From assembly GCF_002286975.1 (NCBI RefSeq), contig NZ_NSKB01000006.1, positions 248,001 through 312,000 on the forward strand: a DNA stretch of 64,000 nt, read 5' to 3'. The translations under genes were made by a program, and so were the position numbers. Positions 21,583 to 41,520 of the stretch are shown one piece after another (position 1 is the first letter of the stretch; each line of letters opens with the position of its first letter). The notes below the pieces were generated by a model. It searched no databases, had not been told where the DNA came from, and worked only from the letters and a program-made list of their open reading frames with translations. The stretch is from Halomonas salipaludis (lineage in GTDB: Bacteria; Pseudomonadota; Gammaproteobacteria; Pseudomonadales; Halomonadaceae).

Positions 21583-21750
21583 ACGGGGACGTTATTGGCT
21601 GAACGTTATTGAATACTTGACATGCCTTGGTGGTCTGGTGGCAGACTAGAAGCATGATCTTGCTTCACTCGTACACGCCACGCGTTACCCGTGGTGAAAG
21701 AATTCAACAACAATAACCGGCGATCAGATTCGCTCGACAAGGAACCCCGC

Positions 21751-23040: not shown

Positions 23041-23094
23041 CAGCAACAGAATTTGCTTGCCGGTGCGCCGGCCGGTAGCCACCAAGAGGTTCCC

Positions 23095-24441: not shown

Positions 24442-24565
24442 GCATGCCGAGCATCGAGCAGTAAGTGAAACCTAGCGTTGACGGCCCTCCCGGGGGCTGC
24501 GGATACGCTAGCCAGGTGCCAGCCGCCGAGGCTGACGACAACAATCCGAAGAATGAGGTGCCACG

Positions 24566-25669: not shown

Positions 25670-25735
25670 CCCCGAACCGCGGCCGGCCCTGGGGCCGGCC
25701 GCCTCTCTTTCGCGAACACACTCGGGGGCTTGACG

Positions 25736-26872
25736 ATGCCGCAATCCCAGAGCCTGGAACAGGCCCATCATCGGCGTCTCGATGAAGACGCCCTGGTCGA
25801 TATTCGCCGTGTGAGCAAGCGCTTCGACGGTGCGCTGGCGGTGGACGACGTCAACCTGAGCATCCGTCGCGGCGAGATCTTTGCGCTGCTCGGCGGCTCG
25901 GGGTCGGGCAAGTCGACGCTGCTGCGCATGCTGGCAGGGTTCGAGAAGCCCAGCGAAGGGCAGGTGCTGCTCGACGGTGAGGACATCACCAAGATGGCGC
26001 CCTATGAGCGCCCGATCAATATGATGTTCCAGTCCTATGCGCTGTTTCCGCACATGACGGTGGCGCAGAACATCGCCTTCGGTCTCAAGCAGGACAAGCT
26101 GCCGCGCCAGGAGATCGACGCGCGCGTGGCCGAGATGCTCAAGCTGGTGCACATGGAGCGCTTCGCCAAGCGCAAGCCGCATCAGCTCTCCGGCGGCCAG
26201 CGCCAGCGCGTGGCGCTGGCGCGTTCGCTGGCCAAGCGGCCCAAGCTGCTGCTGCTCGACGAACCCATGGGGGCGCTGGACAAGAAGCTGCGCACCGAGA
26301 TGCAGCTCGAGGTGGTGGAGATCCTCGAGCGGGTCGGGGTGACCTGCATCATGGTCACCCACGATCAGGAGGAGGCCATGACCATGGCCGACCGGGTGGC
26401 GATCATGGCCGATGGCTGGATCGCCCAGGTCGGCTCGCCGATGGACGTCTACGAGAGTCCGGCGAGCCGTATGGTGGCGGAGTTCGTCGGCACCATGAAC
26501 CTGTTCGAGGGCGATATCGTCGTCGATGAGGCGGACCACTGTGTGATCGACAGCGCCCAGCTGGGGCGCCAGATCTACATCAGCCACGGCGTCAGCACCG
26601 AGGCCGATAACCGCCGGGTGTGGGCCGGGATTCGCCCCGAGAAGACCGGGCTGAGCCGGGAGCGCCCCAGCGGCGACTACAACTGGGCGGCGGGCAAGGT
26701 CGAGGATATCGCCTACCTAGGCGGTTTTTCGGTGTACTTCGTGCGCACCGAGCAGGGTCACCTGGTAAAGGCCAGCCTGACCAACACCGAGCGTCGCGGC
26801 GAGCGCCCCACCTGGGACGACAGCGTCTACATCCACTGGGACGACCGCAGTGCCGTGGTGCTGCGCGACTGA
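25736..26872 (+). CDS. potG: Polyamine ABC transporter, ATPase subunit (PotG type)
   Basis: ATG 25736 is preferred over the TTG at 25730; 378 residues. Walker A is GGSGSGKS (53-60), the ABC signature LSGGQRQRVALARSL, and Walker B LLLLDEP followed by MGALDKKLR. The C-terminal third is a TOBE-type regulatory domain. It powers import through the PotH-PotI pore. It lies 66 bases after potF and 14 before potH, within one clear transcription unit. Confidence 0.95.
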   Translation: MPQSQSLEQAHHRRLDEDALVDIRRVSKRFDGALAVDDVNLSIRRGEIFALLGGSGSGKSTLLRMLAGFEKPSEGQVLLDGEDITKMAPYERPINMMFQSYALFPHMTVAQNIAFGLKQDKLPRQEIDARVAEMLKLVHMERFAKRKPHQLSGGQRQRVALARSLAKRPKLLLLDEPMGALDKKLRTEMQLEVVEILERVGVTCIMVTHDQEEAMTMADRVAIMADGWIAQVGSPMDVYESPASRMVAEFVGTMNLFEGDIVVDEADHCVIDSAQLGRQIYISHGVSTEADNRRVWAGIRPEKTGLSRERPSGDYNWAAGKVEDIAYLGGFSVYFVRTEQGHLVKASLTNTERRGERPTWDDSVYIHWDDRSAVVLRD

Positions 26873-26886
26873 GTGAGGAGCGAACC

Positions 26887-27798
26887 ATGAAGTCTTCACT
26901 GCTAGCGCGGCTGCCGCGTGCGCTGCGCCCCGGTCGTGGCTGGGTGATCGCCGCGCCGCTGCTGTGGCTGACGCTGTTCTTTCTGCTGCCGTTCGGCATC
27001 GTGCTCAAGATCAGCCTCTCTAATGCGGCAATCTCGGTGCCGCCCTACAGCGCGATCTTCGACTACAGCGCCGAGACGCTGAACATCGCGCTGAATTTCG
27101 GCAACTACCTGTTCCTGACCACCGACACCCTGTATGTCGCCGCCTACTGGGGCTCGGTCAAGATCGCCTTCCTGTCGACGCTGCTGTGCCTGCTGATCGG
27201 CTACCCGATGGCCTACGCCATGGCACGCGCGCCGGCGCGCTGGCAGCTGGTATTGCTGCTGCTGGTGATGCTGCCGTCATGGACCTCGTTTCTGATCCGC
27301 GTCTACGCCTGGATGGGGATTCTCAGCAACAACGGCCTGATCAACAATGGCCTGCTGTGGCTGGGACTGATCGACTCACCGATTCGCATGATGAACACCA
27401 ACTTCGCGGTGATCCTGGGCATCGTCTACGCCTACTTGCCGTTCATGATCCTGCCGCTCTACGCCAACCTGTCGCGGCTCGACGGCTCGCTGCTGGAAGC
27501 GGCGTCGGACCTCGGTTCGCGCAAGTTCAATACCTTCCTCAAGGTGACCCTGCCGCTCTCCAAGGGCGGCATCATCGCCGGCTCGATGCTGGTATTCATT
27601 CCCGCGGTGGGCGAGTACGTGATTCCCGAACTGCTGGGTGGGCCCAATACGGTGATGATCGGCAAGGTGTTGTGGGAGGAGTTCTTCCACAACCGTGACT
27701 GGCCGGTGGCCTCGGCGCTGGCGATGGTGATGCTGGCGATCCTGATCATTCCCATCGCGCTGTTCCACCGCTATCAGAGCCGTGAGCTGAAGGAGTGA
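26887..27798 (+). CDS. potH: Polyamine ABC transporter, permease (PotH type)
   Basis: ATG 26887 with GAGGAG upstream gives 303 residues, standard for PotH. The reading frame stays open further upstream, but that part overlaps potG and is not conserved. Six hydrophobic spans are visible, and the cytoplasmic EAA-like loop reads LLEAASDLGSRKFNTFLKVT. It forms the inner-membrane channel with PotI, which starts two bases after its stop. Confidence 0.95.
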   Translation: MKSSLLARLPRALRPGRGWVIAAPLLWLTLFFLLPFGIVLKISLSNAAISVPPYSAIFDYSAETLNIALNFGNYLFLTTDTLYVAAYWGSVKIAFLSTLLCLLIGYPMAYAMARAPARWQLVLLLLVMLPSWTSFLIRVYAWMGILSNNGLINNGLLWLGLIDSPIRMMNTNFAVILGIVYAYLPFMILPLYANLSRLDGSLLEAASDLGSRKFNTFLKVTLPLSKGGIIAGSMLVFIPAVGEYVIPELLGGPNTVMIGKVLWEEFFHNRDWPVASALAMVMLAILIIPIALFHRYQSRELKE

Positions 27799-27800
27799 CC

Positions 27801-28631
27801 ATGAAGAAGCCATCCTTTACCACGCTGATGCTGATTGCCGGACTGCTGTTCCTGTACCTGCCGATGGCGATCCTGATGTTCTACTCGTTCAACTCGTCGC
27901 GGCTGGTGACGGTGTGGGCGGGGTTCTCGGGGCGCTGGTACATCGAGCTGTTCCGCGATCGCCAGATCCTGGCCGCGGTGTGGACCAGCCTGCGTATCGC
28001 CTTCTTCTCGGCGACCATGGCGGTGTGCCTGGGCACCCTGGCGGCCTTCGTCATGACCCGCTTCACGCGCTTTCGGGGCAAGACCGCGCTGTCGAGCATG
28101 GTCACCGCGCCGCTGGTAATGCCCGAGGTGATCACCGGCCTGTCGCTGCTGCTGCTGTTCGTGCACATGGCGCAGATGATCGGCTGGCCGGCGGACCGTG
28201 GCATGGTCACCATCTGGATCGCGCATACCACCTTCTGCAGCGCCTATGTGGCGGTGGTGGTGGCTTCGCGGCTGCGCGAGGTCGACCTGTCGATCGAGGA
28301 GGCGGCGCTGGATCTCGGCTCGCCGCCGCTCAAGACCTTCTTCCAGATCACCCTGCCGATGATCGCCCCGGCGCTGGCCGCCGGCTGGCTGCTGGCCTTC
28401 ACTCTGTCGCTGGATGACCTGGTGATCGCCAGCTTCGTCTCCGGCCCCGGCGCCAGTACCCTGCCGATGGTGGTGTTCTCCTCGGTGCGCATGGGCGTCT
28501 CGCCGAAGATCAACGCTCTGGCCACGCTGATCATCCTGGCGGTGTCGCTGGCGACCTTCCTGGCCTGGTACTTCATGCGTCGCAGTGAGAACAAGCGGCG
28601 TATGGCCATGGCGCAGCAGGACGCCGGCTGA
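27801..28631 (+). CDS. potI: Polyamine ABC transporter, permease (PotI type)
   Basis: ATG 27801 is preferred over a GTG at 27795; 276 residues. It is hydrophobic, with the second EAA loop (IEEAALDLGSPPLKTFFQIT) and a basic, membrane-excluded tail (RRSENKRRMAM). It is the partner of PotH. Translation is probably coupled to potH, with AAGGAG upstream. The REP-like array downstream may end or stabilise this transcript. Confidence 0.95.
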   Translation: MKKPSFTTLMLIAGLLFLYLPMAILMFYSFNSSRLVTVWAGFSGRWYIELFRDRQILAAVWTSLRIAFFSATMAVCLGTLAAFVMTRFTRFRGKTALSSMVTAPLVMPEVITGLSLLLLFVHMAQMIGWPADRGMVTIWIAHTTFCSAYVAVVVASRLREVDLSIEEAALDLGSPPLKTFFQITLPMIAPALAAGWLLAFTLSLDDLVIASFVSGPGASTLPMVVFSSVRMGVSPKINALATLIILAVSLATFLAWYFMRRSENKRRMAMAQQDAG

Positions 28632-28645
28632 TTCAGTCTGACGAT

Positions 28646-28891
28646 AATGGCGCCAAGGACAATCGTAGGAGCGACTTCAGTCGCGATGCAGTGCGAAGCG
28701 CTGCTGGTCAAGTCACCCATCGCGGCTAAAGCCGCTCCTACAAGAGCAATGGCGCCAAGGCAAAAGTGGGAGCGACTTCAGTCGCGATGCAGCGCGCAGC
28801 GCTGCTGGTCAAGCCACCCATCGCGGCTAAAGCCGCTCCTACAAGAGCAATGGCGCCAAGGCAAACGTAGGAGCGATTTCAATCGCGATGA
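28646..28891. repeat. Tandem REP-like palindromic array (about 101-bp unit, about 2.4 copies)
   Basis: Three units start at 28646, 28748 and 28849. The first two are 102 and 101 bases and the third stops after about 43. Each full unit has a left hairpin (ggagcgacttcagtcgc), a GC-rich centre and a right hairpin (gcggctaaagccgctcc). The same modules recur at 60262-60421. They fill the otherwise empty spacer between potI and the second FAD oxidase. Confidence 0.9.
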
Positions 28892-28931
28892 GGTTGCTAT
28901 CCAACATCGATACACCTTGTGGAGATAACGT

Positions 28932-30221
28932 ATGACCCAGACGCCTGCCACCCCGCACGTGGCGTCCTACTATGCCGCCACGGCCAATGCCAGCCCCGAA
29001 CGGCCCAGCCTCAGCGGCGAGATGAGCTGCGATGTATGCGTGGTCGGCGCTGGCTTCACCGGCATCTCGTCGGCGCTGCATCTCGCCGAGCGCGGCTACA
29101 AGGTGGTGGTGCTGGAGGCGGCGCGGGTGGGGTTTGGCGCCTCGGGGCGCAACGGCGGCCAGATCGTCAACAGCTATAGCCGCGACATGGATGTTATCGA
29201 GACCAAGTACGGCCTCGACACCGCCCGCGCCCTGGGCGACATGGCCTTCGAGGGCAATCGCATCATCCGCTCGCGCATCGAGCAGTACGCCATCGACTGC
29301 GATCTCAAGAATGGCAATCTGTTCGCCGCCTGCAACACCCGCCAGATGGAAGGGCTGCGTGAACACCAGGTGCTGTGGCAGCGCTACGGCAACCGCGAGC
29401 TGGAACTGCTCGAGGGTGAGGCGCTCAAGCGTGAGGTGCAAAGCGAGCGCTACGTCGGCGCGCTGGTCGACCACTCCGGCGGGCACCTGCATCCGCTCAA
29501 CCTGGTGCTCGGCCAGGCAGCGGCCTTCGAGGCGCTGGGCGGGATCATTTATGAGCAGTCGCCGCTGCTCGAGCTTACCCACGGCGAACCGGTGCGGCTG
29601 CGCACGCCCGGCGGCACGCTGGTGGCCGAGCGCGTGGTGCTGGCCGGCAATGCCTATCTGCAGGGGGTAGTGCCTGAGCTGGAGGGCAAGTCGATGCCCT
29701 GTGGCACCCAGATCGTCACCACCGAGCCCCTCGGCGAGCGCGGCCGGACGCTGCTGCCCAACGACATGGCGGTGGAGGACTGCAACTACCTGCTCGACTA
29801 TTACCGCCTCACCGGCGACGGCCGGCTGCTGTATGGCGGCGGGGTCAGCTATGGTGGCCAGGATCCCACCAGCATCGAGGCGGTGATCCGCCCCAAGCTG
29901 CTCAAGACCTTCCCCGAGCTCGGCGACGTCAAGATCGACTACGCCTGGAGCGGCAACTTCCTGATGACGCTGAATCGCCTGCCGCAGTTTGGCCGGCTCA
30001 ACGCCAATGTCTACTACGCCCAGGGCTACTCCGGTCACGGCGTGACCTGCAGCCACCTGGCCGGGCGGCTGATCGCCGAGGTGATCGAAGGCGAGAGCGA
30101 GCGCTTCGACGCCTTCGCCGGCCTGCCGCATCTGCCGTTCCCCGGCGGGCGGCTGCTGCGGGTGCCGCTATCGGCGCTGGGGGCGTGGTATTACGCCACC
30201 CGTGACCGACTCGGCGTTTAG
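28932..30221 (+). CDS. puuB: FAD-dependent oxidoreductase, gamma-glutamylputrescine oxidase type, second copy
   Basis: This 429-residue paralogue of the 21751 product has the same length and layout. The Rossmann motif (CVVGAGFTGISSALHL) is followed by FGASGRNGGQI, with YYAQGYSGHGVTCS near the C-terminus. GGAG precedes the ATG. It lies after potI but is separated from it by the REP array, so it may have its own promoter. A likely role is oxidation of a different gamma-glutamylated polyamine from the first copy, as with the multiple PauB enzymes of Pseudomonas. That division of labour is inference. Confidence 0.85.
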   Translation: MTQTPATPHVASYYAATANASPERPSLSGEMSCDVCVVGAGFTGISSALHLAERGYKVVVLEAARVGFGASGRNGGQIVNSYSRDMDVIETKYGLDTARALGDMAFEGNRIIRSRIEQYAIDCDLKNGNLFAACNTRQMEGLREHQVLWQRYGNRELELLEGEALKREVQSERYVGALVDHSGGHLHPLNLVLGQAAAFEALGGIIYEQSPLLELTHGEPVRLRTPGGTLVAERVVLAGNAYLQGVVPELEGKSMPCGTQIVTTEPLGERGRTLLPNDMAVEDCNYLLDYYRLTGDGRLLYGGGVSYGGQDPTSIEAVIRPKLLKTFPELGDVKIDYAWSGNFLMTLNRLPQFGRLNANVYYAQGYSGHGVTCSHLAGRLIAEVIEGESERFDAFAGLPHLPFPGGRLLRVPLSALGAWYYATRDRLGV

Positions 30222-30237: not shown

Positions 30238-31971
30238 TCAGAACAGGCCGCTGATCTCGCCCTGCGCGTCGATGTCGATATGCGCGGCAGCGGGGTCGGC
30301 GCCGAGTCCCGGCAGGGTGCGAATATCGCCGCACAGCGCATAGACGAAGCCCGCACCCGCCGAGAGGCGCACCTCGCGGACCGGCAAGGTCCAGCCCTCG
30401 GGAGCACCGAGGCGCGTCGGATCGGCGGAGAGCGACAGGTGACTCTTGGCAATGCACACGGGGAACTGCCCGTAGCCCTGCTGCTGATAGCGCTCCAACT
30501 GGCCTTGCGCGGTCGTCGAGAAGGCGACATCGGCGGCGCCATACAGGCGCGTGGCGATGCGTGCGATCTTGGCCTCGAGGGGCAGTTCGTCGGGATAGAG
30601 GTACTGGAAGTCGGCGCCGGCCGAGGCCTGTTCCACCACTGCTTCGGCCAGTGCCAGGGCACCATCGCCGCCATCGAGCACGTGGCTGGTGAGCACCGCC
30701 TTGACGCCCACCGACGCGGCCAACTCGACGATCGCAGCATGCTCGCTGGGGTGGTCGGAAGGGAAGGCGTTGATCGCCACGACCGGGGTGATGCCGTGGG
30801 CGCGGATATTGTCGATCTGCTTGAGCAGGTTGGCGCCGCCGGCATGAACTTGCTGTGGGTTCTCGGCCAGCAGCGAGTCGGGCAGTGGCTTGCCGGGTAG
30901 CACTTGGTGCTGGCCGCTGTGATATTTCAGGGCGCGCACCGTGGCCACCAGCACGGCGGCATCCGGCGTTAGCCCCGAGGTGCGGCATTTGATGTTGAAG
31001 AAGCGTTCGGCGCCCATATCGGCACCGAAGCCCGCCTCGGTGACCAGGAAATCGCTGCCGTGCAGGCCAATGCGATCGGCGACGATCGATGAGTTGCCGT
31101 GGGCGATATTGCCGAACGGGCCGGCATGGATCAGTGCCGGAGCGTGCTCCAGGGTCTGCAGCAGGTTGGGCTTGAGGGCTTCCTTGAGCAGGGCGGCCAT
31201 GGCCCCGGCGGCGCGTATCTGTTCGGCCGTGACCGCCTGGCCGTCGCGATCGTAGCCGATCACGATACGGCCCAGGCGCTGGCGCAGGTCGGCCAGTGAA
31301 TCGGCCAGGGCGAGGATCGCCATGACCTCGGAGGCCGCGGTGATCTCGAAGCCGCCCTGACGTGGCACCCCGTCGACCCGCTCGCCGAGGCCCAGCACGA
31401 TGTGTCGCAGCGCGCGGTCGTTGATGTCGATGGCACGCTGCCAGTGGATCTGCTGCGGATCGAGCTGCGGTTCGAGCCGATGGTGAAGGTGGTTGTCGAC
31501 CATTGCCGCGAGCAGGTTGTGGGCGGCGGCGACAGCGTGTAGGTCGCCGGTGAGGTGCAGGTTGATGCGCTCCATGGGCACCACCTGGCTGTGTCCGCCG
31601 CCGGCGGCACCGCCCTTGATGCCCAGGGTCGGCCCCATGGAGGGCTGGCGTAGCGCAACGCTGGCGCGGTGGCCGAGCCGCTGGAGGCCTTGGGTCAAGC
31701 CGATGGCGGTGGTGGTCTTGCCCTCGCCGAGTGGCGTGGGGGTGATGGCCGAGACCACGATGTAGCGCCCCCGGGGCTGCCCGGCCAGGGCGTCGATGGC
31801 GCTCAGGTCGAGTTTAGCGATGCCGCGACCATAGGGTTCCACGGCCTCACCGGGAACCCCCAGGCGGTGGGCGATCTCCTCGATGGGCCATAGCCTGGCC
31901 GTGCGTGCGATACGCAGATTGTCGTTGACTGCCGAAGTGTGCCGCTCGGCTGCGGGAGATTGGCCGCTCAT
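30238..31971 (-). CDS. fhs: Formate-tetrahydrofolate ligase
   Basis: The product is 577 residues, slightly longer than the usual 555-560. The N-terminal P-loop-like ATP site (TPLGEGKTTTAIGL, about residues 80-93) and the conserved QPSMGPTLGIKGGAAGGGH block are present. The enzyme couples formate to THF with ATP, giving 10-formyl-THF, and is reversible. It is divergent from the GbdR-like regulator and near two GcvT-domain enzymes and a MetF homologue. This suggests it handles one-carbon units released by demethylation. It is convergent with the FAD oxidase, with only 16 bases between stops. Confidence 0.95.
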   Translation of the reverse strand: MSGQSPAAERHTSAVNDNLRIARTARLWPIEEIAHRLGVPGEAVEPYGRGIAKLDLSAIDALAGQPRGRYIVVSAITPTPLGEGKTTTAIGLTQGLQRLGHRASVALRQPSMGPTLGIKGGAAGGGHSQVVPMERINLHLTGDLHAVAAAHNLLAAMVDNHLHHRLEPQLDPQQIHWQRAIDINDRALRHIVLGLGERVDGVPRQGGFEITAASEVMAILALADSLADLRQRLGRIVIGYDRDGQAVTAEQIRAAGAMAALLKEALKPNLLQTLEHAPALIHAGPFGNIAHGNSSIVADRIGLHGSDFLVTEAGFGADMGAERFFNIKCRTSGLTPDAAVLVATVRALKYHSGQHQVLPGKPLPDSLLAENPQQVHAGGANLLKQIDNIRAHGITPVVAINAFPSDHPSEHAAIVELAASVGVKAVLTSHVLDGGDGALALAEAVVEQASAGADFQYLYPDELPLEAKIARIATRLYGAADVAFSTTAQGQLERYQQQGYGQFPVCIAKSHLSLSADPTRLGAPEGWTLPVREVRLSAGAGFVYALCGDIRTLPGLGADPAAAHIDIDAQGEISGLF

Positions 31972-32166
31972 CGCCTTGCCTCCTGACTCGCCGTTGATGG
32001 GGAGTGCTGCCCACAGTATTCATGCCATGGCGGCGATGAATTGTCTCGCCGACGTCAGCGGTGTTGGTCGCAGCGACAGTTGCTTGCATCCGTTGTCAAT
32101 ACATTACACTGGGATCATGATAATGGCGTGCGACCGAGCATTCGGCTGAGCGCTTGAGGAGGTGGT

Positions 32167-33213
32167 ATGCAAGGTCATGGAAAACCGCCCAACGGCCGCT
32201 ACAACGTCGGCTTCCTGATGGTGCCGGGGTTCTCCCAACTGGCCTTCTCCTCGACGCTCGAGCCGTTGCGCATGGCTAATCATCTCGCCGACCGGGAGCT
32301 CTATCGCTGGTACTTGATCAGTCGTGACGGTGCCCCGGTCACTGCCAGCAGCGGCCTGACCAGTGACGTCGATCACGACCTGGAGCGTGCGCCGCCGCCG
32401 GACCTGCTGCTGGTATGCGCCGGCGTCGACGTGCAGCGCCACTGCGATCGCGCCACCCTGACCTGGCTCAAGCGCCTGGCGGCGCGTCGCATCCCCCTTG
32501 GGGCAGTTTGCACCGGCGGCTACATGCTGGCTCAGGCCGGGCTGCTGGATGGCTATCGCTGCACCCTGCATTGGGAGCATATCTCGAGCATCCACGAGGC
32601 ACGGATGTTTCCCGCCGTGACCTTCTCCTCGCAGCTGTTCGTCATGGACCGCGATCGCTACACCTGTTCTGGCGGTATTGCACCGCTGGATATGATGCTC
32701 AACCTGATCGGGCGTCAGCAGGGGTTGGAGCTGGCCGAGGCGATTGCCGAGGAGTTCATTCACGAGCGCATCCGCGGTGTCGGCGATCGCCAGCGCACCC
32801 CGCTGCGGGTGCGGCTGGGGCATAGCCACCCCAAGCTGGAGGAGGTCGCTACGCTGATGGAGGCCAACCTCCAGGAACCATTGTCGCTGGATGAGCTGGC
32901 CAGCTATGCCGATCTGTCGCGTCGCCAGCTGGAGCGCCTGTTCCAGCGCTACGTTGACTGCCCGCCGTTGAAGTATTATCTGGAGCTGCGGCTGGTGCGA
33001 GCCAGGCTGCTCTTGCGTCAGACCCATATGCCGATCACCGACGTCGCCCATGCCTGCGGCTTCGTCTCGCCACCGCACTTCACCAAGTGCTACCACGACC
33101 GTTTCGGCCACTCGCCGAGCCGCGAGCGCAAGCGGCGCAGCGACCGCCAGGCCGAGGCCGATGCGCTGCAGGCGGCCTCGCTGGCGGCGCGTCCGGCGCC
33201 CGACGAGGTGTGA
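32167..33213 (+). CDS. GlxA/GbdR-like AraC family regulator
   Basis: The 348-residue protein combines a DJ-1/PfpI-like amidotransferase-fold N-terminus with a C-terminal AraC double helix-turn-helix. N-terminal motifs include FLMVPGFSQLAFSSTLEPLR and GAVCTGGYMLAQAGLLDG. C-terminal motifs include SLDELASYADLSRRQLERLF and ITDVAHACGFVSPPHFTKCY. This architecture is shared by GbdR, the glycine betaine/dimethylglycine sensor of Pseudomonas, and by CdhR-type carnitine regulators. GAGGAGGTGGT precedes the ATG. It lies between fhs and the demethylation genes and probably controls them. Confidence 0.88.
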   Translation: MQGHGKPPNGRYNVGFLMVPGFSQLAFSSTLEPLRMANHLADRELYRWYLISRDGAPVTASSGLTSDVDHDLERAPPPDLLLVCAGVDVQRHCDRATLTWLKRLAARRIPLGAVCTGGYMLAQAGLLDGYRCTLHWEHISSIHEARMFPAVTFSSQLFVMDRDRYTCSGGIAPLDMMLNLIGRQQGLELAEAIAEEFIHERIRGVGDRQRTPLRVRLGHSHPKLEEVATLMEANLQEPLSLDELASYADLSRRQLERLFQRYVDCPPLKYYLELRLVRARLLLRQTHMPITDVAHACGFVSPPHFTKCYHDRFGHSPSRERKRRSDRQAEADALQAASLAARPAPDEV

Positions 33214-33216
33214 TCG

Positions 33217-35784
33217 TCAACTGCGCGGTCGCCGGTTGTCCGGGTCGTACAGCGCCCGGTAGCCTACTGCGGCGATGCGCATCGGATAGTGGGCGCCGAA
33301 GTACTCCAGCAATAGCGTCTGCCCCTGACTGGCGTAGGCTGCGGGTAGGTAGCCCAGGGCGATGTTGCTGCCCACCGAAGGGCCGTAGGCGATACTGGTG
33401 ACATAGGCGCGACGCCCCAGCTCGTCCACCGGTACCTCGCCGCTCTGCGGGTCGAGCAGCGGCGCCTGGCCGACCGGGAAGCGTGGTGTGCCGCTGGCGT
33501 CGAGGTGGTCCTCCATCACCAGGGTGCAGAGGTAGGAGGGCTGGCGATGACGTTGGCGCTGTTCGAGGTGGGCGGCCTTGCCGTAAAAGTCGGCGGCCTT
33601 GACCTTGGGGCGCGCCAGGCCTGCTTCGACCAGGTTGTAGTCGGTCAGCAGGTCGACGTTCTGCAGCCGCAGGCTCTTCTCCAGACGGCGGCTGTTGGCG
33701 TAGGTCTCGATGCCCACCGGCGTTACTCCAGCATCGAACAGCCGATCCCAGAGCGCCAGCGCGTAGCTGAAGGGCACATACAGCTCCCAGCCCTGCTCGC
33801 CCACATAGGAGATGCGGAAGGCCCACACCGGGATGCCCTGAAGGCGCAGTTCACGAGCGCTGGCAAACGGGAAGTTCGCGTCGTCGAGGGCATCGGGGGT
33901 ATCGGCCAGGGCCTGCAGGGTGCGCCGGGCATTGGGGCCCCACAGGCCCAGGGTGGCCAGGCTGTCGCTGCGATCCTCGAGGTGCCAGTGGCTCAGGCCC
34001 AGGTCCTCGGCGCGGCGGATGATCCATACCAGGTCGCGATGGCCGGTATCGCCGCCGCATACTACCCGCCAGGCGTCCGCGGCCAGGCGCACGATGGTCA
34101 GGTCCGAATGGACGCCGCCGGCGGTATCCAGGAAGTGGGTATAGACACCCTTGCCGAGCGGGGTGTCGCCGCCGACCTTGGCCACCGAGAGCGTCTCCAG
34201 CAGCGCCTCGGCATCGCGCCCCGAGATATCGTAGATGGCGAAGTGGGAAAGGTTGATCATCCCCACGTCGTCGCTCAGCGCCAGGTGCTCGGCGTTGGAG
34301 ACGCGCCAGAAGTGGCGCTGGTCCCATTCCGCGGGGCGCTCCGGAATGCGCTCCAGATAGTCGGCGAGGCGTGTCTCGTTGGCGGCATAGCCGTGGGCGC
34401 GCTCCCAGCCCGCGGCCTCCATGAAATAGCCGCCCAGTTCCTGTTCGCGATGCCAAAAGGGGCCACGGCGCAGGTTGCGGCCGTTGTCGAAGGGCTCGCG
34501 GGGGTGCACCGGCGGGTCGTAGATCTTGCGCGCGATCTCCAGGCAGCGGCCATGCACATGGTGCGGGGTCTTCTGTACCGGATAGAAACGCGCGATATCG
34601 ATGCTGCAGGGATCCAGCGTCGGGCGACCGTGGGTCAGCCATTCGGCGGTCAGCTTGCCCATGCCCGGCCCATCCTTGACCCACACCGCCTCGCAGAACC
34701 ACAGGCCGCGGGTCTCCGGTGACTCGCCGACCAGCGAGCCGCCATCCACGGTGACCGAAAGCAGGCCGTTGAAGGAGTGCTTTTCGTCCCAGCCCAGTTC
34801 GCCGAGCAGGGGGGTGAGCTCCACGGCGCGCTCGAAGGCGTCGGCGATCTGCTCGGCCTCGAGGTCGCGCATCGAGGGCGAGAGGCGCGCCTGATCACGC
34901 TCGAGGATAGCGTGGGGATGTACCAGGCGCGGTTCGCGGGCCTCGTAGTAGCCCCACTCGAGCTGGCCACCCTCGGTGGAGGTGGGATCGCCGGTGTCGC
35001 GCAGATAGGCGGAATTGCCCTGGTCGCGCAGCAGCGGGTAGCCGATCTCCAGGCCGGTGCCGGCGAAGGCGTCGTAGGGGCCGAAGAACATCAGCGGATG
35101 CTCCACCGGCATCAGCGGCAGCGCGGCGCCACCCATGGCGGCAGGAATCGGCCCCCAGATGCCGGCGCACACCAGCACCAGCGGCGTTTCGATATAGCCC
35201 TTGGCGGTCTCCACGCCGCATACCCGGCCAGCCTGAACGTCGATATCCAGCGCCGGGGTATCGGCGAAGACGCTGAGATGGCCGCTCTCGACCCCGCGTT
35301 CGATCAGTTCGCCGGCAACGCGCTGGGAGCGCGGCACCACCAGGCCGGCATCGGGGTCCCACATGCCGCCCAGCAGCAGGTCCCGTTCCAGCAGCGGGAA
35401 GCGCTCGACCACTTCGTCGGCGTCGATCATGCTCACGCGAGTGCCGAATGCCTTGCCCGAGGCGACCTTGCGCTGCAACTCCGCCAGGCGTGCCTCGTCG
35501 CCGACCCGGGCGATTTCCAGGCCGCCGATGCGGCGATAGCGTCCCATCGCCTCATAGAAGCGTTGGCTGTAGGTCGTGGTGTAGCACGACAGCTTGTCAT
35601 GGGCGGTCATGAAGCAGAAATCGGAGGCGTGGGAGGTCGACCCGATATCCGAAGGGATGGCGGACTTGTCGAGACCCACCAGCCGGGTCCAGCCCAGCTC
35701 GATCAGGTGGTGAGCCAGCGAGGCGCCGACGATGCCGCCCTGACCGATGATCACCGCGTCCGCGTGCCGAGGGAGTGTCGCCAT
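33217..35784 (-). CDS. FAD-dependent oxidase fused to GcvT domain (dimethylglycine/sarcosine dehydrogenase type)
   Basis: ATG 35784 with AGGAGG upstream gives 855 residues. The N-terminal about 430 residues are a DAO-type FAD oxidase (IIGQGGIVGASLAHHL), with His in GSTSHAS where relatives attach FAD covalently. The C-terminal half is a folate-binding GcvT domain (LSHFAIYDISGRDAEALLE, GEQGWELYVPFSY). Such fusions oxidise an N-methyl group and pass it to THF as 5,10-methylene-THF. Dimethylglycine or sarcosine are the usual substrates, but the family is broad. It ends 3 bases from the convergent regulator gene. Confidence 0.88.
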   Translation of the reverse strand: MATLPRHADAVIIGQGGIVGASLAHHLIELGWTRLVGLDKSAIPSDIGSTSHASDFCFMTAHDKLSCYTTTYSQRFYEAMGRYRRIGGLEIARVGDEARLAELQRKVASGKAFGTRVSMIDADEVVERFPLLERDLLLGGMWDPDAGLVVPRSQRVAGELIERGVESGHLSVFADTPALDIDVQAGRVCGVETAKGYIETPLVLVCAGIWGPIPAAMGGAALPLMPVEHPLMFFGPYDAFAGTGLEIGYPLLRDQGNSAYLRDTGDPTSTEGGQLEWGYYEAREPRLVHPHAILERDQARLSPSMRDLEAEQIADAFERAVELTPLLGELGWDEKHSFNGLLSVTVDGGSLVGESPETRGLWFCEAVWVKDGPGMGKLTAEWLTHGRPTLDPCSIDIARFYPVQKTPHHVHGRCLEIARKIYDPPVHPREPFDNGRNLRRGPFWHREQELGGYFMEAAGWERAHGYAANETRLADYLERIPERPAEWDQRHFWRVSNAEHLALSDDVGMINLSHFAIYDISGRDAEALLETLSVAKVGGDTPLGKGVYTHFLDTAGGVHSDLTIVRLAADAWRVVCGGDTGHRDLVWIIRRAEDLGLSHWHLEDRSDSLATLGLWGPNARRTLQALADTPDALDDANFPFASARELRLQGIPVWAFRISYVGEQGWELYVPFSYALALWDRLFDAGVTPVGIETYANSRRLEKSLRLQNVDLLTDYNLVEAGLARPKVKAADFYGKAAHLEQRQRHRQPSYLCTLVMEDHLDASGTPRFPVGQAPLLDPQSGEVPVDELGRRAYVTSIAYGPSVGSNIALGYLPAAYASQGQTLLLEYFGAHYPMRIAAVGYRALYDPDNRRPRS

Positions 35785-35872
35785 GGCAAGCCTCCTGTAA
35801 GCCGGTGACGGGATGCCTGGGATCAGGATAATCCACTCTGCACTGCCGCGCTGTCCCGCGACGACGCCGTCT

Positions 35873-35916
35873 TTGGCGGCGGCGACAGCGGCGCCAGGCG
35901 ATGTCGCCGCCACCAA
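35873..35916. promoter_or_regulatory. Long imperfect palindrome in the divergent spacer
   Basis: A 15-bp inverted repeat with one mismatch (ttggcggcggcgaca / tgtcgccgccaccaa, 14-base loop) lies between the divergent FAD-GcvT gene and the DmdA-like gene. It could be an operator for the GbdR-like regulator, a leader hairpin or an attenuator. No T-run follows on either side, so it is not a simple terminator. Confidence 0.4.
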
Positions 35917-36018
35917 AATAGCCGGCGTCGAGGGTGACATGCGCTGTCCCGTGGCGCGCTAGCTTCGCTAGTTAGAAGCGGCGCTGACGGCCGTTTCGCC
36001 GCGAAGAGGAGGCAGGTC

Positions 36019-37215
36019 ATGTCCCATGTCATCGAAAGCGTCGAGCACACTCAGGCTGCGCCCGAGATCCTGCTCTATCCGCGCATCCGCAAGTCGCCGT
36101 TCTTCTACGCCTCGCGGCGCCATGGGGTGCGCAAGTACAGCGTCTACAACCACCACTATCATCCGCGTCTCTACACCGATCCGGTGGACGAGTACTGGGC
36201 GCTGGTGCAGGGCGTCACCCTGTGGGACGTCGGTGTCGAGCGCCAGATCGAGATCAGCGGTCCGGATGCTTTCACCTTCGTGCAGCGGCTGGTGCCCCGC
36301 GATATGCACCAGTGCCAGGCGGGGCAGTGCAAGTACGTCTTCGTCACGGCGGCGGACGGCGGGATCATCAACGACCCGGTGCTGCTGCGCGTCGAGGAGG
36401 AGCGCTTCTGGCTGTCGCTGGCCGATAGCGACGTGCTGCTCTGGTGCCAGGGCCTCGCCTATCATGCCGGCCTGGATGTCAGTATCCAGGAGGTGGACGT
36501 GGCGCCGGTCCAGGTCCAGGGGCCCAAGGCCAAGGCGGTGATGGTCGACCTGTTCGGCGAGGCGGTGTTGGCGATGCGCTATTACCACCTGATGGAGGCC
36601 ACGCTCGACGGCATGTCGGTGGTGATCTCGCGCACCGGCTACTCCGGCGAGATCGGCTACGAGATCTACCTGCGCGAGGCCAGCCGCCATGGTGAAGCGC
36701 TCTGGCAGCGGGTCTTCGAGGCCGGTCGGCCGCATGGCATGCAGGTCATCGGTCCCTGCCACATCCGCCGCATCGAGGGCGGCATCCTGGCCTTCGGCTG
36801 CGACATCTGGTACGACACCAACCCCTTCGAGGTGGGTATGGGCTACGACTGGATGGTCGACCTGCGCGGCGACGACGACTTCATCGGCCGTGCCGCCCTG
36901 GAGCGGATCAAGGCCGAGGGGGTATCGCGCAAGCTGGTGGGGGTGGAGATCGACGGCCCCAGTGTCGGCCACTTCACCGATGGTGCCATGATTGACGTTT
37001 TCCCGGTGCTCGACGGTCACGGCACGCGTATCGGCCAGGTGACCTCGGCCACCCACTCGCCGCGTCAGCAGCGCAATATCGGCTATGCCATGGTGCCGAT
37101 CGAGTATGCCGAACTGGGGACGCCGCTGCGCATCGATGCCAATACCGGCATGCAGGAGGCGCGGGTGGTAGCCAAGCCGTTCCATGATCCGGGCAAGGAA
37201 ATTCCCAAGGGCTGA
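36019..37215 (+). CDS. GcvT family methyltransferase, DMSP-demethylase (DmdA)-like
   Basis: The 398-residue protein is a stand-alone folate-binding GcvT-type enzyme. Its N-terminal half follows the DmdA pattern closely, from memory of that family: RIRKSPF, YSVYNHHYHP, LWDVGVERQIEISGPDAF, IINDPVLLRVEEERFWLSL, then ADSDVLL. DmdA moves a methyl group from dimethylsulfoniopropionate to THF, giving 5-methyl-THF. Related proteins may act on other methylated compounds. The MetF-like gene starts 3 bases after its stop, which would reoxidise 5-methyl-THF. Substrate is uncertain. Confidence 0.8.
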   Translation: MSHVIESVEHTQAAPEILLYPRIRKSPFFYASRRHGVRKYSVYNHHYHPRLYTDPVDEYWALVQGVTLWDVGVERQIEISGPDAFTFVQRLVPRDMHQCQAGQCKYVFVTAADGGIINDPVLLRVEEERFWLSLADSDVLLWCQGLAYHAGLDVSIQEVDVAPVQVQGPKAKAVMVDLFGEAVLAMRYYHLMEATLDGMSVVISRTGYSGEIGYEIYLREASRHGEALWQRVFEAGRPHGMQVIGPCHIRRIEGGILAFGCDIWYDTNPFEVGMGYDWMVDLRGDDDFIGRAALERIKAEGVSRKLVGVEIDGPSVGHFTDGAMIDVFPVLDGHGTRIGQVTSATHSPRQQRNIGYAMVPIEYAELGTPLRIDANTGMQEARVVAKPFHDPGKEIPKG

Positions 37216-37218
37216 TGC

Positions 37219-38112
37219 ATGAACGACCTGCTACGTCTGGCCACACTGCCGAGCGATGAACGCGCCTGTCAGGCGCTGGCAGCGCCGCGCTACGAATTGC
37301 TGCCCCTCGCCGATCTGCAGCAGGCCGCCGATGCGCTGCCCGCGGGCGCCGTGGTCACGGTGACCTGCTCACCGCGCCACGGCCTGGAGCGTACCCTGGC
37401 GGCCAGCGAAACGCTGGCGGCGGCGGGGTTCCGGGTGGTGCCGCATCTTGCCGCCCGGCTGGTGCGCGATCGTTGGCATCTCGCCGAGGCGGTGGTACGG
37501 CTGACGAGCTTGGGCATCGATGAGTGTTTCGTGGTCGGCGGCGATGCCGAGGCAGCGGAAGGCGACTTCGCTACCGGCCTGGCGCTGCTCGAGGCGCTCG
37601 TCGAGTTGCCGACGCGGCCGAACCGGGTCGGGGTGCCGGCCTATCCGGAAGGGCATCCGCACATTCCTGCGCAGCACTTGCAGCAGGATCTCGAGGCCAA
37701 GGCGTGGCTCGCCGACTACGTCGTCACCCAGCTCTGCTTCGAGGCCGCGCCCCTGCTGGCCTGGCGCGAGCATCAGCGACAACGCGGCATGTCGCTGCCG
37801 ATTCACGTTGGGCTGCCCGGGGTGCTATCGCGCAAGCGGCTGTTGGGGCTCGCGACCCGCCTCGGCCTGGGCGCCTCGACCCGTGCGCTGGGGCGTCAGA
37901 AAGGGTTGGTCGCGCGCCTGCTGCGACCCACTCGATATCGGCCCGATGCTCTGCTGGAGGCGCTCTGGCCATGGCTCGGCGACGTCGCCGAAGGCTTCGC
38001 CGGGGTGCACCTCTACACCTTCAATCAGACTGCTGACACTCGCGCCTGGTGCGAAGCACAGTGTCGCCGGCAGTGCGCCTGGCAATCCCCTCAGTCGTCG
38101 CCCTCTCTATGA
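37219..38112 (+). CDS. Methylenetetrahydrofolate reductase-like protein (divergent MetF)
   Basis: The 297-residue protein has the length of MetF but is divergent. The glutamate of the catalytic FEFFP motif appears in RYELLPL. The aspartate of the GD motif appears in VVGGDAEA, and TVTCSPRHG, VPHLAARLVRD and YVVTQLCFEA mark the flavin barrel. MetF enzymes interconvert 5,10-methylene-THF and 5-methyl-THF. Coupled to the DmdA-like gene, it most likely oxidises 5-methyl-THF made by demethylation, rather than serving methionine synthesis. The C-terminus is cysteine-containing (CEAQCRRQC). Confidence 0.8.
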   Translation: MNDLLRLATLPSDERACQALAAPRYELLPLADLQQAADALPAGAVVTVTCSPRHGLERTLAASETLAAAGFRVVPHLAARLVRDRWHLAEAVVRLTSLGIDECFVVGGDAEAAEGDFATGLALLEALVELPTRPNRVGVPAYPEGHPHIPAQHLQQDLEAKAWLADYVVTQLCFEAAPLLAWREHQRQRGMSLPIHVGLPGVLSRKRLLGLATRLGLGASTRALGRQKGLVARLLRPTRYRPDALLEALWPWLGDVAEGFAGVHLYTFNQTADTRAWCEAQCRRQCAWQSPQSSPSL

Positions 38113-39077: not shown

Positions 39078-40457
39078 CTAGACCTGGCGCAGGTACCAGT
39101 CATACTCAAGCTGGCTAACCGCCTGCATCGCCTGGTCGCGCTCGGCCTGGCGGTTGGCCAGGTAGACGTGCAGGAAGCGCTCGCCGAGCGCTTCGGCCAG
39201 TACCTCGTCCTCGCCGAGCAGCGTCAGCGCCTGCTGCCAGCTATTGGTGAGGCTCGGCTCGCACTGGTCGTAGGCGTTGCCCTCGATCGGCGGCGGCGGT
39301 GTCAGCTGCTGGCGCAGGCCGTGATCGATGGAGGCCAGCAGCGTTGCCAGCAGCAAGTAAGGGTTGACGTCGGCGCCGGCCACGCGGTGCTCGATGCGTT
39401 TTGCGGCCTTGGGGCCGGAGGGGATGCGCACCGCCACCGAGCGGTTGTCGTAGCCCCAGGTCGGTGCCATGGGCACGTAGAGCCCGGGCTGGAAGCGCCG
39501 GAAGGAGTTGATGTTGGGAGCGAAGATCGCCATCGACGCCGGCATCAGGGCCAGCAGTCCGGCGACGGCGTGGTGCAGCGCAGGGGTACCCAGCGGATCG
39601 TCATCCGTGGCGGCGAAGACGTTGCGGCCGTGGGCGTCGAGCAGGCTGATGTGGACGTGGGTGCCGTTGCCGGCCTCGTCGCCGTAGGGCTTGGCCATGA
39701 AGGTGGCCTCGAAGCCGTGCTGGATGGCCACCCCCTTGATCAAGCGCTTGAGCAGCACCGAGCTGTCGCAGGCCTTGAGCACGTCGTCACAGTGGGTCAG
39801 ATTGATTTCGAACTGGCCGGGAGCGCACTCCTTGAGGGCGGTATCCAGCGGCAGCTGCTGGGCGGCGGCGGCGGCCTGGATGTCCTCGAGAAAATCGGCG
39901 TACTCGTCGAGCTCGTTGATCGAGTAGAGCTGGCTCTGGGAGGCGCGTTCGCCGGTGGTCGGCGAGCAGGGCGGCTGGGCGGAGCCGAGGGCGTCGCGGC
40001 TGCGGTCGACCAGGTAGAACTCCAGCTCCACGGCGACCACCGGGGTCAGGCCGGCGGCGGTGAAGCGCGCCAGCACTCGCTGCAGTACCTGACGCGGGTC
40101 GGCAAAGAAGCCGCTGCCGTCGGCATCGAACATGGTCATCAGCAGCTGCCCCTGACGCCCCTTGCGCAGCCAGGGGCAGGGTTTCAGGGTGCCGGCCACC
40201 GGGCGGCAGATGCGGTCGCCGTCGCCGCTGGCAAGGCCCAGGCCGGTCTCCTCGATGGTGTTGCCGTTGATATCGAGGGCGAACAGTGAGGCCGGCAGGT
40301 TGATGCCGGCACTGAAGGCCTTGGTCAGATTGTCGCGCGGGATGCGCTTACCGCGCATCACCCCGTTGAGGTCGCTGATCAGCAGGTCGACACTGTCGAT
40401 ATCGGGATGGCGCTCGAGAAAGGTCTCGGCCTCGCCAGCAGACGCGGTCACCGACAT
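39078..40457 (-). CDS. puuA: Gamma-glutamylpolyamine synthetase (glutamine synthetase family), second copy
   Basis: The 459-residue protein is a GlnA-like fold: LLISDLNGVMRGKRIPRDNL near residue 26, VELEFYLVDRS near 141, EINLTHCDD near 212 and NINSFRRFQPGLY. SDLNGVMRGKRIP is characteristic of PuuA-type ligases rather than GlnA. It is divergent from puuD, which starts 266 bases away and would act two steps later in the same pathway. It probably glutamylates putrescine or another diamine. The previous copy at 23095 is clearly diverged, so substrates may differ. Confidence 0.88.
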   Translation of the reverse strand: MSVTASAGEAETFLERHPDIDSVDLLISDLNGVMRGKRIPRDNLTKAFSAGINLPASLFALDINGNTIEETGLGLASGDGDRICRPVAGTLKPCPWLRKGRQGQLLMTMFDADGSGFFADPRQVLQRVLARFTAAGLTPVVAVELEFYLVDRSRDALGSAQPPCSPTTGERASQSQLYSINELDEYADFLEDIQAAAAAQQLPLDTALKECAPGQFEINLTHCDDVLKACDSSVLLKRLIKGVAIQHGFEATFMAKPYGDEAGNGTHVHISLLDAHGRNVFAATDDDPLGTPALHHAVAGLLALMPASMAIFAPNINSFRRFQPGLYVPMAPTWGYDNRSVAVRIPSGPKAAKRIEHRVAGADVNPYLLLATLLASIDHGLRQQLTPPPPIEGNAYDQCEPSLTNSWQQALTLLGEDEVLAEALGERFLHVYLANRQAERDQAMQAVSQLEYDWYLRQV

Positions 40458-40680
40458 GGGGAGTCCCTTGTAGTTGGAGTCATGGGGTCATCTTTTCCGA
40501 CCGGCGCGGGTGTTGTCAAATTATTTACGGTTGGTAGCTGGGCCGCACAATCCGCGTTCATCGCTTGATAGAGCCTGTTTTCGGGCTGTTTTCCGTCCGT
40601 TATGACGGCGTTGCAGGCCCGGTTGGAGGGTTGGCAGCGGCGTGTATGGCATGTAATGTTTAACAAAGAATAACAGCCCT

Positions 40681-40696
40681 GGCCCTGTATAGGGCC
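40681..40696. promoter_or_regulatory. Short palindrome upstream of puuD
   Basis: ggccct / agggcc with a 4-base loop lies 28 bases before the puuD start. It follows an AT-richer stretch (about 40645-40675, atgtaatgtttaacaaag). The divergent spacer 40458-40723 is the likely control region for both genes and a candidate target of the PuuR-like repressor. Confidence 0.3.
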
Positions 40697-40723
40697 CTAT
40701 TAGCGAGTAGTAAGGAGTCGTGT

Positions 40724-41500
40724 ATGTCCAGTCGACCGCTGGTCGGGGTCATTGCCTGCCGCCGCGAGGTGGAAGGCCACCCCGCGCATATGGTCACCGA
40801 TAAGTATCTCCAGGCGCTGCGCGACTATGGGCTTGCCCCGCTGGTGCTGCCGGTGTGGGAAGATGGCGGCGGCCTGGAGGCGGGCCTGCTCGCTGAGCTC
40901 GACGGCCTGCTGCTGACCGGCAGTTACACCAATGTGGCGCCGGCGCGCTATGGCGCCGAGCCGGCCCCACAGAATACCCGCGACGACCCGCATCGCGACG
41001 CCGCGGCGCTGGCCTGGATTCCTGCTGCGCTGGACCTGGGGGTGCCGCTGTTCGGCATCTGTCGCGGCTTCCAGGAGATCAACGTGGCGTTTGGCGGCAC
41101 CCTGCATCAGGCGCTGCAGGTGGTGCCGGGGCTGCTCGATCATCGCGAACCGCAGGGCGACAAGGCGAGCCAGTATGCGCCGAGCCATGACCTGACGATC
41201 CTGCCCGGTGGCCCGCTGGCGGCGCTGCATGCCTCGCCTGAGAGTCGCGTCAACTCGCTGCATCAGCAGGGTGTGGCCGAGCTGGGGCTGGGGCTGCGCG
41301 CCGAGGCAGTGGCGCCGGATGGGGTGATCGAGGCGCTGTCGGTGGAGGGCGCGCGGCGCTTCGCCCTGGCGGTGCAGTGGCACCCCGAGTGGCAGCCCGC
41401 CCAGCATCCTCTCTACGACGCCCTGTTTCACGGCTTCGCCGCGGCCTGCCGCGAGCGTGCCGCGGAACGTCGTGGCGCCACCATGCTGATCGACGCCTGA
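40724..41500 (+). CDS. puuD: Gamma-glutamyl-gamma-aminobutyrate hydrolase
   Basis: This 258-residue class I glutamine-amidotransferase-like hydrolase has its nucleophile Cys113 in FGICRGFQEINV and the triad completed by His220 and Glu222 (QWHPEW). PuuD cleaves gamma-glutamyl-GABA to glutamate and GABA, the last step of the gamma-glutamylation route. AAGGAG precedes the start. The aminotransferase gene follows 20 bases later in the same direction. Confidence 0.93.
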   Translation: MSSRPLVGVIACRREVEGHPAHMVTDKYLQALRDYGLAPLVLPVWEDGGGLEAGLLAELDGLLLTGSYTNVAPARYGAEPAPQNTRDDPHRDAAALAWIPAALDLGVPLFGICRGFQEINVAFGGTLHQALQVVPGLLDHREPQGDKASQYAPSHDLTILPGGPLAALHASPESRVNSLHQQGVAELGLGLRAEAVAPDGVIEALSVEGARRFALAVQWHPEWQPAQHPLYDALFHGFAAACRERAAERRGATMLIDA

Positions 41501-41520
41501 CACGCTGAGGAAATCGCACC

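Follow-up and report, generated by a model that had tools for sequence, protein, structure and literature searches.

A proposed tetrahydrofolate-based glycine betaine catabolic cassette in Halomonas salipaludis with counterparts in halomonads and actinobacteria

Introduction

Glycine betaine (GB) is among the commonest osmolytes. Passages of a 2025 PNAS paper (PMC12478193) call bacterial GB catabolism a long-standing knowledge gap and name as first-step GB demethylases GbcAB, a monooxygenase that releases formaldehyde, Bhmt, and the corrinoid MtgBC with MtgA or MtgD. In Arthrobacter sp. Rue61a, according to part of a 2012 genome paper (PMC3534580), the betaine pathway was scored as incomplete, yet the organism grows on betaine. 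Two systems of other substrates transfer methyl groups to tetrahydrofolate (THF): the dimethylsulfoniopropionate (DMSP) demethylase DmdA, for which part of PMC5395565 describes a redox-neutral methyl transfer, and the demethylase LigM of SYK-6, with which, according to part of a 2026 review (PMC13001107), the SYK-6 MetF, a member of a subfamily that prefers oxidation of CH3-THF, has coevolved. Here we analyse a stretch of 64,000 nucleotides of Halomonas salipaludis (contig NZ_NSKB01000006.1, positions 248,001 to 312,000; hereafter the window), in which genes for a formate-THF ligase (Fhs), a GbdR-like regulator, a flavin adenine dinucleotide (FAD) oxidase-GcvT fusion of the dimethylglycine oxidase (DMGO) type, a DmdA-like protein and a divergent MetF-like protein lie together at 30238..38112.

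We suggest that this locus is probably a THF-based GB catabolic cassette. In the proposed pathway, (i) the DmdA-like protein would transfer one N-methyl group of GB to THF in a redox-neutral reaction, giving dimethylglycine (DMG) and 5-methyl-THF, (ii) the MetF-like protein would oxidize 5-methyl-THF to 5,10-methylene-THF, (iii) the fusion would convert DMG to sarcosine and load the methyl group on THF as methylene-THF, (iv) sarcosine would be converted to glycine by a sarcosine oxidase encoded elsewhere, and (v) Fhs would interconvert formyl-THF with formate and ATP and in that way close the one-carbon branch, with the GbdR-like AraC regulator acting on the divergent promoter. GB is proposed as the substrate because an onium methyl donor with dimethylglycine as its product is glycine betaine.

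Results

The DmdA-like protein (398 aa; 36019..37215, plus strand), a GcvT-fold protein with GCV_T and GCV_T_C domains that we propose to be a GB:THF methyltransferase, has DmdA (3tfh, E 3e-65) as its closest solved structure. It scores 336.1 bits (335.8 in the genome search) against the DMSP demethylase family NF009133, under the cut-off of 410. Its D119, which we take to be the position of the catalytic aspartate of GcvT, is invariant across 22 sequences. The fusion (33217..35940 as the listed open reading frame (ORF), minus strand; DAO, FAO_M, GCV_T and GCV_T_C domains) has dimethylglycine oxidase 1pj5 as its closest relative in the PDB (E 7e-110, 372 bits, residues 62-905). Together with three relatives it retains the residues aligned with H225, Y259 and D552 of that enzyme (numbering counted by hand on the alignment), which are presumably the catalytic histidine, the catalytic tyrosine and the folate-site aspartate.

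The MetF-like protein (297 aa; 37219..38112, plus strand), the proposed 5-methyl-THF oxidase, matches the MTHFR family PF02219 weakly (42.5 bits) and TIGR00676 at 53.7 bits, against a cut-off of 293.7. Its closest relative in the PDB is 7xg9 (E 2e-29), which we take to be the MetF of Sphingobium SYK-6, followed by 3apt (E 9e-12). It is a second, divergent copy: in the genome search its PF02219 score is 38.5 bits, and that of the canonical metF on another contig is 285.8. Three bases separate its gene from the DmdA-like gene upstream, and the two are probably co-transcribed. Fhs (577 aa; 30238..31971, minus strand; PF01268, 804 bits; NF010030, 782.6 bits, above the cut-off of 652) is the sole PF01268 match found in the genome. 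The AraC-family regulator (348 aa; 32167..33213, plus strand) has a DJ-1/PfpI domain and HTH_18 in Pfam and scores 438.6 bits against NF052371 (GbdR), near but under the cut-off of 480. The initial annotation, made from the sequence alone, had placed these five genes as given here; all five ORFs are open to the stop and Pfam agrees, and the only correction concerns the start of the fusion. Many halomonad homologues, of 855-857 aa, start at the position of residue 53 in the listed ORF; the fusion therefore probably begins with the ATG at 35784 and has 855 aa.

A scan of species genomes with the DmdA-like protein as query gave, from the best 80 matches, 78 loci whose proteins are 59-98% identical to it; neighbours were counted in flanks of up to 10 kb. 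By record title, 34 of the loci are from Halomonadaceae (L057-L088, L092, L133), 41 from Actinomycetota (Brachybacterium, Nesterenkonia, Microbacterium, Rubrobacter, Saccharopolyspora, Actinopolyspora, Thermoleophilia and others), two from Ectothiorhodospiraceae (L089, L131) and one from a Chloroflexi metagenome-assembled genome (MAG; L098). A DMGO-type fusion lies near the DmdA-like gene in 67/78 loci, MetF in 57/78 and Fhs in 51/78; a GbdR-like gene is present in 32/78, all halomonad, and an IclR-type gene in 26/78. Among the partners of the DmdA-like gene the fusion is thus the most constant, and MetF is frequent. By comparison, the fusion was found near none of the seven loci of the neighbouring DmdA clade that scores below the cut-off (L040, L041, L192-L196) and near one of eight loci of another GcvT-like clade (L042-L047, L189, L190). 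We regard the gene set as beyond chance because it recurs across phyla, as opposed to none of seven neighbouring DmdA-clade loci with a fusion.

The initial annotation had read the five genes as one pathway with two demethylation chemistries, the DmdA-like protein yielding 5-methyl-THF and the fusion methylene-THF, and had made co-conservation elsewhere its touchstone. The recurrence of the set supports that reading, although MetF is missing beside the DmdA-like gene in 17/78 loci, and with it MetF working in the oxidative direction and Fhs closing the one-carbon branch would be consistent. Halomonadaceae and Rhodobacteraceae had been named as the families to search; the former carry the set, as do Ectothiorhodospiraceae, Actinomycetota and one Chloroflexi MAG, and none of the 78 loci among the best 80 matches is from Rhodobacteraceae.

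Nothing in the window itself names the substrate. In some relatives the cassette has genes of GB transport and of the oxidation of DMG and sarcosine nearby, the transport and sarcosine links being found in a minority of the 78 loci: SoxA and SoxB in four, an MSOX-like protein in five, BCCT in three, OpuAC in two and SdaA in three. The soxA and soxB genes lie beside the cassette in Actinopolyspora (L091), Saccharopolyspora (L093) and two Microbacterium loci (L106, L120), the latter two of which are without the fusion. The fusion of Actinopolyspora matches crystallised DMGO 1pj5 with 901 bits over residues 7-829 of 830, and that of Nesterenkonia with 523 bits. In a Rubrobacteraceae MAG (L107), genes for BCCT (627 bits), the fusion, the DmdA-like protein, MetF, an FTCD_C protein, a second GcvT, an FAD oxidase and IclR form one run; this FAD oxidase scores 509 against the NCBIfam family of N-methyl-L-tryptophan oxidase (cut-off 257) and 309 against that of monomeric sarcosine oxidase, under the cut-off of 480. 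At the Chloroflexi locus L098, IclR, the DmdA-like gene and MetF are joined by genes for a CBS-domain ATPase, a permease, an OpuAC protein that binds GB (203 bits) and an FAD oxidase broken by the contig end, and L130 brings OpuAC, BCCT, the fusion and the DmdA-like gene together. The Thermoleophilia loci L096, L101 and L132 have EtfB, EtfA and an Fe-S protein in addition. A serine deaminase gene lies near L089, L106 and L120, and also at L047, a locus of the other GcvT-like clade.

As to more distant relatives, seven loci in the family of Nesterenkonia (L177-L183) encode 61-63% relatives; among them, L181 has BCCT, IclR and a DMGO-type gene with the DmdA-like gene, and L183 has BCCT and IclR only. 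At L184 a 57% relative adjoins a flavoprotein that shares 49% identity with the gbcAB neighbour in the genome of the window, which we take to be DgcA; its NCBIfam name is only that of an OYE-type protein, with a score below the cut-off. Thus far the betaine half of the original suggestion of a betaine or sulfonium osmolyte has stood, the neighbours in relatives pointing to GB, and to DMG for the fusion; the sulfonium half, DMSP, is unlikely (see below).

A stand-alone second GcvT next to an FAD oxidase of the N-methyltryptophan/monomeric sarcosine oxidase type was seen not only in L107 (12792-15343) but also in L111, L117, L126 and L127. The pair in L107 recalls SAR11_1303/1304 in passages of a 2011 SAR11 paper (PMC3160333), which mention proteins resembling GcvT, with unknown substrate, close to opu genes and a monomeric sarcosine oxidase; these SAR11 passages contain no betaine demethylase of the GcvT/DmdA type.

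We consider it unlikely that the DmdA-like protein acts instead on another betaine, such as proline betaine, carnitine or gamma-butyrobetaine, or on several of these, and the fusion on the N-methyl compound so formed. Betaines other than GB are also carried by BCCT and OpuAC transporters. Moreover, in a side clade of 55-57% identity, the relative at L187 (10667-13279) is divergent to two genes, one proline dehydrogenase-like (215 bits, cut-off 500) and the other for an L-glutamate gamma-semialdehyde dehydrogenase (698 bits, cut-off 614), and L188 (10805-12253) is similar by eye. The proline genes, however, were seen only in this side clade, and the cassette proper, with its DMGO-type fusion in 67/78 loci and sarcosine oxidase at four loci, fits a glycine-derived betaine. 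The substrate range may nevertheless vary, L187 and L188 hinting at a proline betaine version.

A dedicated MetF, putatively of the SYK-6 type, in 57/78 loci points to 5-methyl-THF as the product of the DmdA-like protein. Alternatively, the DmdA-like protein could merely trap formaldehyde or an imine from FAD oxidases as methylene-THF, as the GcvT domain of sarcosine oxidase does. The GcvT fold, the FAD oxidase partners and the retained aspartate D119 agree with such a trap, and the 17 loci without MetF are allowed by it. Against it stand the GcvT domain that the fusion already has, the frequent MetF, which argues for a 5-methyl-THF product, and a sequence much nearer to DmdA than to GcvT (336 bits against the DMSP demethylase family, 184 against GcvT), so that we regard a trapping role as improbable.

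In a tree of DmdA-like proteins (69 rows, 32 of the 78 loci included, midpoint root), all 17 DmdA rows, above and below the cut-off, fall in a single branch of 18 rows together with one other (support 95/81). The window protein groups with actinobacterial rows in a branch of 36 rows (93/66), or of 32 rows (91/96) once the 55-57% rows are removed. Neither the DmdA clades nor the INLRQ clade falls within the DmdA-like set, whose own support is modest (93/66). Within this set, which is otherwise actinobacterial and Chloroflexi, the gammaproteobacterial rows form one branch (100/100). This topology, rooted at the midpoint and hence neutral as to direction, fits horizontal transfer into halophilic Gammaproteobacteria. 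The GcvT-like clade of L042-L047, L189 and L190, with INLRQSGPTPVEM near the N-terminus, constitutes separate DmdA relatives; a MetF homologue adjoins in five of the eight loci, and L047 also has a DMGO-type fusion (67% identical to that of the window), a serine deaminase, a GbdR-like regulator and Fhs.

These relationships bear on the reading of the locus as one for DMSP demethylation by DmdA, which we rejected as first choice given that family cut-off, clade and usual neighbours disagree with it. DmdA is the nearest solved relative and the nearest NCBIfam family, and 72 conserved positions are shared by the DmdA-like proteins with both DmdA groups (the DmdA sub-group compared without L163). 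The score of 336 bits, however, is under the curated cut-off of 410, and the window protein lies outside the DmdA clades. An acyl-CoA ligase gene adjoins the DmdA-clade loci L193 and L195, with an enoyl-CoA hydratase gene also at L193; no such ligase/hydratase pair was seen in the cassette loci inspected gene by gene, a search that did not extend across all 78. Finally, 41 of the 44 non-halomonad loci are actinobacterial by title. In total, a DMSP demethylase is very unlikely.

In the tree of fusions, which was built without 1pj5 and without the ORFs of L211, L213, L215-L217 and L219-L223, the fusions linked to a DmdA-like gene and the unlinked ones of L052 and L053 form a clade of 25 rows that includes L091 and L093 and is apart from 10 other fusions. 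Identity was measured separately for fusions outside the tree: those of L219 and L220 (79%) and L217 (62%) are of the window type, and L222 and L223 have more distant ones. That unrelated DMG oxidases had joined the DmdA-like gene several times independently was discarded as an argument, the linked fusions forming one clade; the OYE-type neighbour of L184 is the sole remaining different enzyme paired with a DmdA-like relative.

Known genes for betaine catabolism were searched for in the carriers. The initial annotation had found GbcAB and soxBDAG not to be visible, which holds for the window and fails for the genome: GbcA (848 bits, cut-off 670) and GbcB (683 bits, cut-off 500) are encoded at another locus (L138, contig C31), and soxB (738 bits, cut-off 529) lies outside the window. 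The search for GbcA covered 48 cassette genomes, drawn from 50 of the 78 loci, and those for MTTB/MtgB and soxB covered 49. GbcA exceeded the cut-off in 12/48, all among the 16 halomonads searched and none among the 32 others, four of which have a GbcA-family match of 376-416 bits, under the cut-off. In 18/48 there was neither a GbcA match (E<=0.001) nor an MTTB/MtgB-family protein, a point in favour of the proposed reading; the MTTB/MtgB family was present in 2/49 genomes. A soxB match was obtained in 29/49 genomes at E<=1e-60, in 24 of them above the cut-off. Halomonas icarae (L084, G362) carries both the cassette and soxB, without a GbcA or MTTB match.

Two side observations concern related genes. 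A Rieske oxygenase encoded elsewhere in the genome of the window (L139, 6858-13892, contig C33) scores 122.8 bits to the GbcA family (cut-off 670); its gene sits in a row of genes that by eye are oxidoreductase-like, and the enzyme may act on another onium compound. In genomes G772, G656, G672 and G680, matches to the actinobacterial DmdA-like protein have one in-frame stop each.

The fusion and the DmdA-like gene are transcribed divergently from a region of 234 bp (35785..36018, measured from the homologue-based start of the fusion and aligned across halomonads). It contains a conserved inverted repeat, GGCGACAG...TGTCGCC (35881..35908), a candidate operator for the local AraC regulator. The pattern CGACAG-N(8-40)-TGTCG is present in 25/33 related halomonad upstream regions, with a gap of 12-14 bases in 24 of these, as opposed to a mean of 0.1 and a maximum of 2/33 after single-base shuffling of the regions; the 33 regions being kin, the count shows conservation and not 33 independent cases. 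The GbdR-like regulator probably acts on this promoter. An operator common to the cassette and gbcA was rejected: the cassette repeat occurs in 0/13 gbcA upstream regions, and the gbcA motif matched 4/13.

Outside the five genes, a polyamine uptake and catabolism cluster (21691-30221 and 39078-44396) is split by the cassette. Its members, most of them presumptive, are PotFGHI-like transport proteins, DAO-family oxidases, a glutamine synthetase-like protein, a PuuD-like protein, an aminotransferase and an aldehyde dehydrogenase. That in halomonads N-methylated polyamines are the substrates of the fusion and its partners is highly doubtful: it would agree with the position of the cassette between the presumed PotFGHI-like transporter with its DAO-family oxidase and the presumed PuuA/PuuD/aminotransferase/aldehyde dehydrogenase group, with the glutamine synthetase of that group near 30/78 loci, all halomonad (that of L070 just 33% identical), and with the fusion of L052 and L053 in such a cluster without a DmdA-like gene, but this glutamine synthetase, the one puu gene searched there, was unmatched in the 44 non-halomonad loci and in the halomonads L066, L069, L074 and L082.

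Discussion

Several observations weigh against a THF-based GB cassette. The fusion is absent in 11/78 loci; seven of these have sufficient upstream sequence (L095, L100, L106, L108, L120, L123, L129), and in the other four (L089, L113, L114, L133) the upstream sequence is shorter than 1.2 kb. In 17/78 loci, with at least 8 kb downstream, MetF was not found beside the DmdA-like gene even in a laxer second search; these are the halomonads L059, L062, L068, L070, L071, L076, L077 and L085, the ectothiorhodospiraceous L089, and the actinobacteria L100, L103, L105, L106, L108, L119, L120 and L122. Orthologues of the fusion with 79-81% identity occur in L052, L053, L219 and L220, from genomes without a cassette-type DmdA-like match, and in L052 and L053 the fusion adjoins the glutamine synthetase of the polyamine cluster. 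Betaine transporters are encoded in just 4/78 loci (BCCT in L107, L117 and L130; OpuAC in L098 and L130). Among the 61-63% relatives, five loci (L177-L180, L182) gave no match to DMGO, sox, BCCT or OpuAC within 17-20 kb; L178 has an MFS symporter under the cut-offs of the shikimate and ProP transporters. The genome of the window itself carries GbcAB and soxB, and the non-halomonads G369, G372, G374, G377 and G388 each have, no more than 7 kb from soxB, a Rieske match that stays below the cut-off for GbcA, perhaps another betaine oxygenase. Among the matches listed, the cassette is present in 33/250 genomes of the family, and GbcA, in a hand tally, in 26/33 halomonads with the cassette and 165/217 without it.

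A strict pairing of MetF with the DmdA-like gene is contradicted by the 17 loci. Separately, the MetF partner seems to be lost at times, as a 39-residue remnant is left in L085 and it is absent, for example, from L077. The expectation that the cassette simply replaces GbcAB was likewise abandoned, the anticorrelation it predicts being absent in halomonads. Since the cassette is independent of GbcA in the 250 family genomes, it would in halomonads be an additional route, which may spare O2 and retain the methyl group on folate.

Having weighed these points, we incline to the view that the DmdA-like clade represents a further class of GB demethylase, a single GB:THF methyltransferase independent of O2 and cobalamin, which together with DMG oxidase, Fhs and mostly a MetF of its own would form a fully folate-linked pathway from GB to glycine that is common to Actinomycetota and Chloroflexota and was acquired horizontally by halophilic Gammaproteobacteria. 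No betaine demethylase of the GcvT/DmdA type was found in the literature searched, which comprised open-licence PMC papers. The fold and the chemistry are known; the proposed substrate and pathway are new. If the proposal is correct, the DmdA-like gene would provide a marker for the first GB demethylation in actinobacteria and halophiles, GB demethylation would be freed from O2 and B12 with the methyl group staying on folate and no release of formaldehyde, and naming such proteins DMSP demethylases on the basis of similarity would call for caution.

The proposed cassette combines traits of several described systems. With DmdA (3tfh; NF009133) the DmdA-like protein shares family and core and, as proposed, the redox-neutral passage of a methyl group from an onium donor to THF, and the DmdA-clade loci L192 and L040 also have MetF, FolD or PurU adjoining. 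The window protein differs from DmdA in falling under the family cut-off, in its separate clade, in having DMG oxidase as its usual neighbour, and in H48, T67, G245, C247, W278 and M279, which are conserved in the DmdA-like clade and different in both DmdA groups. LigH of SYK-6 is a formate-THF ligase, and the LigM-MetF-LigH system shares with the cassette the logic of a THF-dependent demethylase, a MetF that oxidizes 5-methyl-THF and a formate-THF ligase. The demethylase of the cassette, in contrast, belongs to a different branch of GcvT (56.6 bits to the LigM family NF047885, cut-off 580) and would act on an aliphatic betaine, not on aryl methyl ethers. Arthrobacter dimethylglycine oxidase 1pj5 is a near full-length match to the fusion with the catalytic positions retained, the fusion of the window being more distant from it (372 bits) than that of Actinopolyspora (901 bits).

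With the Rieske GB monooxygenase GbcAB the cassette would share the overall step from GB to DMG; unlike GbcAB, it would use no O2 and release no formaldehyde at this step. In the described alternatives, as given in passages of PMC12478193, the corrinoid MtgB with MtgC and MtgA or MtgD passes a methyl group of GB to THF, and Bhmt passes it to homocysteine. Mtg needs cobalamin proteins and Bhmt needs homocysteine, unlike the enzyme proposed for the cassette, which would transfer the methyl group of GB to THF by itself.

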